Shown here: piece after piece, positions 59,513 through 61,964 of the stretch | Numbering within the stretch: the first letter of the stretch is position 1 | Layout: every line of letters begins with the position of its first letter | NCBI RefSeq assembly: GCF_008709555.1 | Contig: NZ_VYIJ01000006.1 | Span: 1 to 64,000, forward strand | Length of the DNA stretch: 64,000 nt | Source of the DNA: Thermoplasma sp. | Lineage (GTDB): Archaea; Thermoplasmatota; Thermoplasmata; Thermoplasmatales; Thermoplasmataceae | Reading direction: 5' to 3' | Position numbers and translations under genes: made by a program | Notes under the pieces: model-generated | Database searches by the model: none | The model's input: only the letters and a program-made list of their open reading frames with translations | Told to the model about the DNA's origin: nothing

Positions 59513-60601
59513 ATGGAAAACACTTACACAGTAAGATAATATGGACATATATCTGAAATTATGGCAATAATTGGCTATGTTGTTCCGACATTTATTCTCG
59601 TCACTCCAACATTTTATATCACATATATATCAAAAACTTTCAGTATACCATATTATACCACATTCATTATAATTGGGTCCCCATACATAGGTAGATTTAT
59701 AGGGACCTATATGTATTCGCGTTTCAGGTTTCTCGGCACGCCGTTCATGGTATCGATGTCCGTCCTTGGCCTCATATCCGCCTACATGTCTTTCACGGAC
59801 AACGTGTCTGTGATGATAATCTTACGTTTTCTCATCGGAATAGTCTTCGGCATATCAACATCATTTGCCGTTGAGGTGGCGGTCAGAACAAGAAAACAGC
59901 ACATAATAGGTCTTACGACTGGATGATGGGCCATAGGCTGGATAATTGCAGCCTTCGTTTCTGCAATGCTTCCCTACAGGTATGCGCTTCTCTCCGGTGC
60001 AATAGCGCTGCCGATCTCAGCAATGGGCCTGCTCCTCAGGAAGGTTGGTATAGGACATGTGATAGCATCCGGTTTCAACTTCTCCCTGTATGGATTTCTC
60101 ATCTATTTCCTGGCGTTCGAGCCCGCATTCGTCCTCCAGATAATCCCTCAGGTCTTCGGTTCTCAGGCTTTCCTTGAATCGGAGATAGCCTATTTCCTAA
60201 CTGTACCTGCCTATATGACGTTCCCGATCATCGCAAAGCGTTATGGTTTCAGGAGGGCGGTTTATTCAATAGCCTCACTTTCCATTGCGCTATCCATATT
60301 TGCCTTCATGTATCTGAACTTCTACGCCGCAATCATATTCACGGTCTTCGGGCTAGCCGTCAATGCGGTGATCACTGGCTTCCTCAGGGATGAGGATCTG
60401 AGTCCTGAGAAGATAGGGCCTTCAATGAATTTTTCCGCAATAAATGGTTTCATAGTACCTACGATGATCTACCTGATCGGATACATCAGGGTATCTGCTG
60501 TGGCCATAACGGTTGTATCGATGGCGCTTCTTTTCACCTTTTCGGCGATGGGCCAGAAGGCCTTCTCCGCCTCAACATCTTCGATAACTCACCGAGCTTG
60601 A
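59513..60601 (+). pseudogene. Major facilitator transporter gene with two in-frame stops
   Basis: The frame from ATG 59513 runs 363 codons to TGA at 60599-60601, with TAA at 59537-59539 (codon 9) and TGA at 59924-59926 as the only interruptions. Around the second stop, GLTTG and WAIGWIIAAFVSAML read as one helix 4/5 region, so a Gly codon (GGA) probably became TGA. Helices before and after are intact. At about 360 codons the gene is also shorter than the usual 400, so the C-terminal helices may be reduced. Two stops argue against a sequencing error for both. It is divergent from an intact transporter. Confidence 0.78.
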
Positions 60602-60652
60602 AAATGTATAACGGCCTTCGAAAAGGCATTGAAGGTAAAAGTAATTAAATCA

Positions 60653-60664: not shown

Positions 60665-60683
60665 GGGTTGTCTCATCATCTAG

Positions 60684-60860
60684 TTCCATGAACCATGAGT
60701 GGCAACGACGACGTGAGACTAGAGGTTGCCCTGCCATGGGCCTCGAATTGAGAATATGTGGTGTAGCTTTCGGTGATAATCCGATCAGAGGCGGGCAAAG
60801 AATTCCCCGGAGGGTCAGAGTGCAGGAAACGTGACTGTATCTCGTTACTTCCGGGGAAGA
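60684..60860 (+). ncRNA. Candidate structured non-coding RNA
   Basis: This GC-rich block of about 175 bases between AT-rich flanks has no credible protein frame. A 9-bp perfect stem joins TTCCCCGGA (60803-60811) and TCCGGGGAA (60850-60858). A bulged hairpin GAG..GCCC/GGGC..CTC lies at 60722-60744, a TCGG/CCGA hairpin with loop TGATAAT near 60770-60784, and GGCAAC (60701-60706) can pair with GTTGCC. It has a TATA-like element 26 bases before its start, and the next gene has its own TATA box at 60859-60866, so it is not that gene's leader. I could not match it to SRP or RNase P RNA. An H/ACA-type or unknown RNA fits. Confidence 0.5.
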
Positions 60861-60866
60861 TATATC
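60859..60866 (+). promoter_or_regulatory. TATA box of the site-2 protease gene
   Basis: GATATATC is centred about 23 bases before ATG 60885, which suggests a leaderless transcript. Confidence 0.5.
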
Positions 60867-60884: not shown

Positions 60885-61964
60885 ATGGAACAGACCATCA
60901 GGGTTCAGAATGAGGATTTGAGATACGTTGTGTCCGTTGTCACCTCGAGGGTAAATGTATACGATATAATAGTAGATCCAATTTCGGTCAAGTTCTACTT
61001 CTTTGACAGCGATAATCCTGACATAGACGATGCGTTCGATTACATAAGGAGGGATCTGATAGATCACGGATTCATACCCATGGTTATCCGCGACGGAGAG
61101 AACATCATACAGGTGACGAAGAGACCAAAGCAGCGTTATTTTGGCAACATCGTCAACCTCATACTCCTGGTGGCCACAATACTCTCCACCATGTATGTAG
61201 GTTCCCAGTACTCCATAAACTTCGTGCCGAAAGGGGCCTACTACACGCTCAGGTTATGGGGCTACGGTTTCCTATTCTTCTCTGCTCCGCTTCTGCTGAT
61301 ACTGGGCATACATGAAAGCGCGCATTTCCTTGTGGCAAGGAGGCACCATGTTAAGGCTTCATTGCCATTCTTCATTCCGTTTCCGGTCGGCATAGGCACA
61401 TTTGGTGCATTCATATCGCTCAGGGATCCGCTTCCTAACAGGAAGGCCATGGCCGAGATAGGTGCTGCAGGCCCAATAGCCGGATTTCTCACCGCTCTTC
61501 CGCTGCTCTTTGTCGCGGATCATTTTCAGAACGTTGTAAAGCCGATACCGCCTGCGTACATACCATTCAAGGTTACCTTCCCGCTTATATACCATCTCTT
61601 TGGTCTAAACACGGACTTCACCGGGCCCATATTCCCAATGGTATTCGCGGTTTGGGTTGGTATGTTCGCCACAGCTATGAACCTGATCCCGGCCGGGCAG
61701 CTGGACGGAAGCCACATAGTACGCGGCGTTCTCGGAAGCAGGGCCAACATACTCTCCTACGTATTCCTCGCATTCCTCTTCGCCATAGGTTTCTTCTATA
61801 CCGGCTGGTGGATAATCGCAATATTCGTCATATTCACCGGGCTGGTCCATCCCCCTGCTCTGAACGACTATTCGAAGATCTCCGGTCTGGACATAGCGCT
61901 TGGCGTCGTTTCCCTCATCATGTTCATCCTTACCTTCACCATCATACCTATAAGGCCAGCATGA
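60885..61964 (+). CDS. Site-2 protease family membrane metalloprotease (M50)
   Basis: This 359-residue intramembrane zinc protease probably cuts membrane-bound regulators. An N-terminal soluble part of about 85 residues (FIPMVIRDGENIIQVTKRP) precedes the membrane core. The zinc motif HESAH is near residue 145 (GIHESAHFLVARRHHV), and the third ligand is in NLIPAGQLDGSH near residue 270. Between them FPVGIGTFGAFISLRDP and GAAGPIAGFLTAL are typical. All catalytic elements are intact. A leaderless start at ATG 60885 is given by the TATA box; the stop is 10 bases from the convergent HPP gene. Substrates are unknown. Confidence 0.92.
   Translation: MEQTIRVQNEDLRYVVSVVTSRVNVYDIIVDPISVKFYFFDSDNPDIDDAFDYIRRDLIDHGFIPMVIRDGENIIQVTKRPKQRYFGNIVNLILLVATILSTMYVGSQYSINFVPKGAYYTLRLWGYGFLFFSAPLLLILGIHESAHFLVARRHHVKASLPFFIPFPVGIGTFGAFISLRDPLPNRKAMAEIGAAGPIAGFLTALPLLFVADHFQNVVKPIPPAYIPFKVTFPLIYHLFGLNTDFTGPIFPMVFAVWVGMFATAMNLIPAGQLDGSHIVRGVLGSRANILSYVFLAFLFAIGFFYTGWWIIAIFVIFTGLVHPPALNDYSKISGLDIALGVVSLIMFILTFTIIPIRPA

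Follow-up and report, generated by a model that had tools for sequence, protein, structure and literature searches.

In the window, the whole stretch of 64,000 nucleotides of Thermoplasma sp. DNA that was analysed, a block of conserved sequence separates a transporter-like membrane protein gene (59561-60601) from a gene encoding a site-2 (M50) protease. The transporter gene was described as broken in an earlier note made from this DNA, and its reading frame is indeed interrupted once, by a TGA at codon 122 (59924-59926) that is absent from four congeners, where the homologue is uninterrupted over the aligned stretch. Neither half of the interrupted gene matched Pfam, and it is either a pseudogene of recent origin or an artefact of assembly. 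Within the block the only sense open reading frames extend to 48 and 46 codons, in agreement with the view that it holds no sizeable protein frame, and the 9-bp stem previously reported between 60803-60811 (TTCCCCGGA) and 60850-60858 (TCCGGGGAA) proved exact on reading the sequence. While the earlier note proposed a structured RNA and left its class unnamed, here we assign it to the box H/ACA guide RNAs. The features of the locus are as follows:

60637-60650, + strand: promoter-like BRE/TATA element, TAAAAGTAATTAAA (consensus only)
60670-60719, + strand: hairpin 1 (alignment and pair counts, helices 1-2; target rank)
60670-60676/60713-60719, + strand: hairpin 1 lower stem
60683-60689/60699-60706, + strand: hairpin 1 upper stem
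60677-60682 and 60707-60712, + strand: hairpin 1 guides, left CAUCUA and right GACGAC
60690-60691 and 60696-60698, + strand: hairpin 1 K-loop, GA and UGA
60721-60723, + strand: hairpin 1 ANA box (AGA), +14 from the upper-stem closing pair
60727-60798, + strand: hairpin 2 (alignment and pair counts, helices 3-5)
About 60727-60735/60790-60798, + strand: hairpin 2 lower stem
60743-60749/60777-60784, + strand: hairpin 2 upper stem
60736-60742 and 60785-60789, + strand: hairpin 2 guides, left AUGGGCC and right UCAGA
60750-60751 and 60774-60776, + strand: hairpin 2 K-turn, GA and UGA
60799-60801, + strand: hairpin 2 ANA box (AGA), +14 from the closing pair
60803-60858, + strand: hairpin 3 (pair counts, helices 6-8; perfect two-armed U1915 match)
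60803-60811/60850-60858, + strand: hairpin 3 lower stem, the 9-bp stem mentioned above
60818-60825/60835-60843, + strand: hairpin 3 upper stem
60812-60817 and 60844-60849, + strand: hairpin 3 guides, left GGGUCA and right GUUACU
60826-60827 and 60832-60834, + strand: hairpin 3 K-loop, GA and UGA
60858-60860, + strand: hairpin 3 ANA box (AGA), +14 from the closing pair in the window
60885-61964, + strand: site-2 (M50) protease gene, a neighbour outside the RNA (Pfam Peptidase_M50, 3e-22)

The whole guide RNA spans about 195 nt (60668-60864, + strand), its approximate ends being those of the block shared by 20 aligned genomes; a covariance model built from these 20 relatives, R1, matches 60668-60862 of the window. 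A start at 60684, as first suggested, is too late by some 14-16 nt and removes the first stem arm at 60670-60676. Likewise, the conserved promoter-like element is located at about 60637-60650 and not where a start at 60684 implies; in most of the 20 relatives, RAAA followed by a TTTAA-like (TTAAA-like) box occurs approximately 25-30 nt before the first stem. Similarly, the description of the block as GC-rich holds only with respect to the flanking spacer (about 0.47-0.53 versus about 0.41). Folding of the single sequence is unremarkable (-67 kcal/mol, z = -1.54, with 14 of 200 shuffles as good), and the RNA is judged to be real because it is conserved, since folding energy alone would not single the block out.

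By DNA search, each of the five genomes of the genus has the block, as does roughly half of the sampled family; identities are 87-96% within the genus, and similarity is weaker across the family. The R1 model extends this range to 82 of 400 genomes of the class Thermoplasmata, comprising 59 of the 62 genomes of its own family, 19 from the rest of the order and four from another part of the class. Across the 20 sequences the drawn structure pairs 84% of alignment cells, a percentage somewhat flattered by drawing the structure from the same sequences used for the pair counts. The stems are conserved in the comparison with Thermoplasmata genomes that the earlier note had proposed, and both sides have changed in 30 of the 47 pairs, with such pairs occurring in all eight helices; these double changes would not be easily explained other than by a conserved structure. 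The covariation score of 0.423 compares with 0.184 +/- 0.012 for shuffled alignments and at most 0.119 for slid ones, and on four of five structure measures none of 500 shuffles reaches the observed values.

As a yardstick for class membership we used published archaeal H/ACA anatomy, in which a K-loop carries GA and UGA, the GA stem measures about 10 layers and the ANA box lies 14 nt from the closing pair (PMC4652768), accepting an ANA box at 14-16 nt past the pair that closes the pocket. The aligned sequences support an RNA of this geometry: all 20 contain three consecutive archaeal H/ACA motifs, each comprising a lower stem, a two-sided pocket and an upper stem with a K-loop or K-turn. ANA is found at +14 in 18 of the 20 relatives for hairpin 1 and in 19 of 20 for hairpin 2. 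For hairpin 3, with the closing pair taken from the alignment, almost all of the 20 have ANA at either +13 or +14; the spacing varies because the bottom pair of the upper stem does not form in every case. The GA and UGA of hairpins 1 and 3 are conserved in nearly all alignment rows; in hairpin 2 the UGA is nearly invariant, and the left GA is replaced by CA or UA in some rows, such that its G is not invariant. A U.U pair often accompanies the sheared pairs of the K-loops and K-turn. The genome itself encodes a single Cbf5-like protein, which combines a TruB domain with a PUA domain and has archaeal Cbf5 as its best PDB matches.

Candidate targets were sought by scoring every 23S uridine with each species' own guides, read off the alignment by eye, and requiring the two arms to flank an unpaired UN; positions are given in E. 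coli numbering. As a control, the same procedure recovered the published targets of two hairpins of HgcG (PMC6138745, PMC4652768). For hairpin 3, U1915 in helix 69 ranks first of 1146 columns with a score of 23.9 (next best 11.9, column mean 1.5), and a two-armed match to this position is present in all genomes tested, one of them with one skipped base. When guide positions were shuffled in the same way in all species, none of 200 sets equalled the observed score for U1915, or for the U2511 site discussed below. Guide and rRNA also covary: GGGUCA faces UGACCC in the Thermoplasmata, whereas in Thermococcus both sides have changed to GGGUUA and UAACCC.

For hairpin 1, the highest-ranking of 1070 columns is U2511, with a score of 17.1 (next best 9.8, mean 1.0). 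In two other families (f3 and f4), whose guides read GGAA on the left and GAC(GAC) on the right, pairing around U2511 is two-armed, with 4-5 bp and 3-7 bp and no skipped base. Within the Thermoplasma family, pairing with the U2511 region reaches 8 bp for the right guide and is limited to a single pair for the left; the activity of hairpin 1 in this family is uncertain because its left guide pairs at one position only. Another site, U757, matched well in the genus Thermoplasma alone and was set aside, as the match is not conserved in other genera. A further family, f8 (L164, L165, L168 and L170), has a right guide, UCCGAC, unlike that of other families, and its 23S rRNA at 2509-2510 likewise differs from theirs (G and U in G129); of these changes, that at 2509 is compensatory (U-A to G-C), and that at 2510 is not.

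The U2511 site can be related to published positions in the Thermococcales. The 23S rRNA of a Thermococcus genome, G403, aligns gap-free over E. coli 2485-2530, placing G403 2606 at 2511 and G403 2591 at 2496. The best score of HgcG hairpin 1 falls at G403 2591, a single base away from the target published as T. kodakarensis 2592 / P. abyssi 2588; with the same offset, G403 2606 would be T. kodakarensis 2607 / P. abyssi 2603. Through this mapping via G403 and published numbering, U2511 appears to correspond to a uridine that Cbf5 and Gar1 convert to pseudouridine without a guide, and for which no guide RNA was found in P. abyssi (PMC6138745). Hairpin 1 may represent a U2511 guide that is two-armed in some families of the Thermoplasmata and reduced to one arm in the Thermoplasma family. 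The lineage would then preserve an intermediate stage between pseudouridylation of one rRNA site with and without RNA guidance, a scenario on which we judge the balance to be even.

Combining these observations, we conclude with high confidence that this block specifies a box H/ACA guide sRNA of the archaeal type, with three motifs and a predicted transcription unit of its own, in which hairpin 3 would be directed to U1915 and hairpin 1 to U2511. The sequences themselves establish the RNA, its structure and H/ACA geometry, the complementarity of guides and targets and the presence of a Cbf5 gene; beyond this, we would expect the RNA to be transcribed, bound by protein and responsible for pseudouridylation as follows. 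L7Ae would bind the K-loop or K-turn of each hairpin, and Cbf5, Nop10 and Gar1 the stem and ANA box. The internal loop would then capture a stretch of rRNA such that a single uridine is offered to Cbf5 and converted to pseudouridine: 23S U1915 in the case of hairpin 3, and U2511 in the case of hairpin 1, held by both arms in the two other families and, in the Thermoplasma family, mainly by the right one.

The alternative that survives best retains the H/ACA assignment and takes hairpin 3 as the sole guide, leaving hairpins 1 and 2 as structural elements or orphans and treating the pairing with U2511 as incidental. Consistent with this, the left guide of hairpin 1 is unconserved and contributes just one pair in the RNA's own family, and hairpin 2 yielded no convincing target in 16S or 23S rRNA, the tRNAs of congener G004, or RNase P and SRP RNA, despite a strongly conserved pocket (UGGGCY / YCAGM). 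Its weak sites, at E. coli 1060, 2580 and 2291, are equally poor, and a genome pattern search returned scattered one-mismatch matches only. One further candidate, the segment CCUCUGGAUCGGAGGCCCAU of the genome's own SRP RNA (L022), is a near-complete complement of hairpin 2 (window 60736-60791); this complementarity is lost in G004 and most other genera, and is probably a coincidence. Against hairpin 3 being the only guide, however, the two arms of hairpin 1 in f3 and f4 form canonical pairs to either side of U2511, shuffling the guides never produced a set that scores as high as hairpin 1 does at this site, and a guide is reported to be productive with only a single pair in one of its duplexes (PMC4652768). 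We consider a sole-guide role for hairpin 3 rather unlikely.

Far less probable is that the block forms a structured 5' leader of the site-2 protease gene, for example a riboswitch or an attenuator. Such an arrangement is suggested by 19 of the 20 first-found relatives, in which a protease-like ORF on the same strand begins a few tens of bases past the end of the RNA. It is largely refuted by the genomes that retain the RNA beside different genes: tblastn searches, which included L009 as a positive control, revealed no protease homologue near the RNA in G012 (one genus of its own family) or in the other families examined, and in several genomes the neighbours lie on the strand opposite to the RNA. 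The RNA is thus INDEPENDENCE from the protease gene, being kept where the neighbour differs or is on the opposite strand. In addition, conservation in the RNA falls on its K-loops, its ANA boxes and pockets complementary to rRNA, and a promoter-like box lies just upstream of the RNA. These findings, together with the compensatory changes in its stems, bear out the earlier proposal of an independent RNA that is not the leader of the downstream gene. The TATA box then ascribed to the protease gene itself fares less well, as the GATATATC element is lost even within the genus. Within the genus Thermoplasma, co-transcription with the protease gene followed by processing is possible. In a separate genome, G029, a tRNA gene (L009 1264-1336, - strand) lies upstream of the guide RNA, at a distance of about 125 nt and encoded on the other strand. 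Finally, a divergent SRP RNA or RNase P RNA, which would share with the block little more than being structured and a few hundred bases long at most, can be dismissed in line with the earlier note, as single strong genes for both occur elsewhere in the genome (RNase P RNA, E = 9e-63; SRP RNA, E = 4e-46).

The covariance search against Rfam that had been recommended for the block matched no family at gathering level, and at lax thresholds (E up to 10) returned chance matches only. Of known RNAs, that most similar to the box H/ACA RNA described here is HgcG (Pab40/Pf7; RF00064), a triple guide RNA of the Thermococcales that likewise consists of three consecutive H/ACA hairpins. The third hairpin of both is directed to U1915 (P. 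abyssi 2016), through equivalent pockets (GGGUUA/GUUAC in HgcG and GGGUCA/GUUAC in the Thermoplasma RNA). In contrast, hairpin 1 of HgcG targets U2496 (E. coli numbering; P. abyssi 2588) and that of the Thermoplasma RNA U2511. The RF00064 model does not match the Thermoplasma RNA even at E up to 10, nor does R1 match HgcG in the reverse test. Common descent is plausible, and the RNA is not filed as HgcG because the two models are mutually negative and the first-hairpin targets differ. A Thermococcus genome also contains a second, sub-threshold HgcG-like match (42.8 bits; L260, G403:C26:30854-31062), which might be a paralogue.

Hairpins for the equivalent of U1915 have also been reported in other archaea, namely Archaeoglobus Afu4 and the L2015 motif of M. 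jannaschii (PMC4652768, PMC2584109), which by their published description have this target in common with the Thermoplasma RNA. In the HP1/HP2 RNA of Haloferax volcanii, HP2 is predicted to target U1915 and U1917, and HP1 U2586 (PMC2584109). HP2 thereby resembles hairpin 3 in its U1915 target, whereas the H. volcanii RNA has two hairpins and a long spacer in place of three consecutive hairpins, and the position targeted by HP1 is a C in the Thermoplasmata examined. A limited search of the open literature found no description of a Thermoplasma H/ACA RNA. Very probably, then, this is a real H/ACA guide RNA that is absent from Rfam, an unlisted member of an already known class.

Together, this analysis describes a guide RNA that had not been listed and that occurs across much of the Thermoplasmata, at a locus where no Rfam family matched, and offers what may be an explanation for modification of helix 69 in this class. 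Furthermore, should hairpin 1 indeed guide U2511, one archaeal lineage would use a guide to modify an rRNA uridine that another modifies guide-free, and the origin or loss of RNA guidance would become directly testable.
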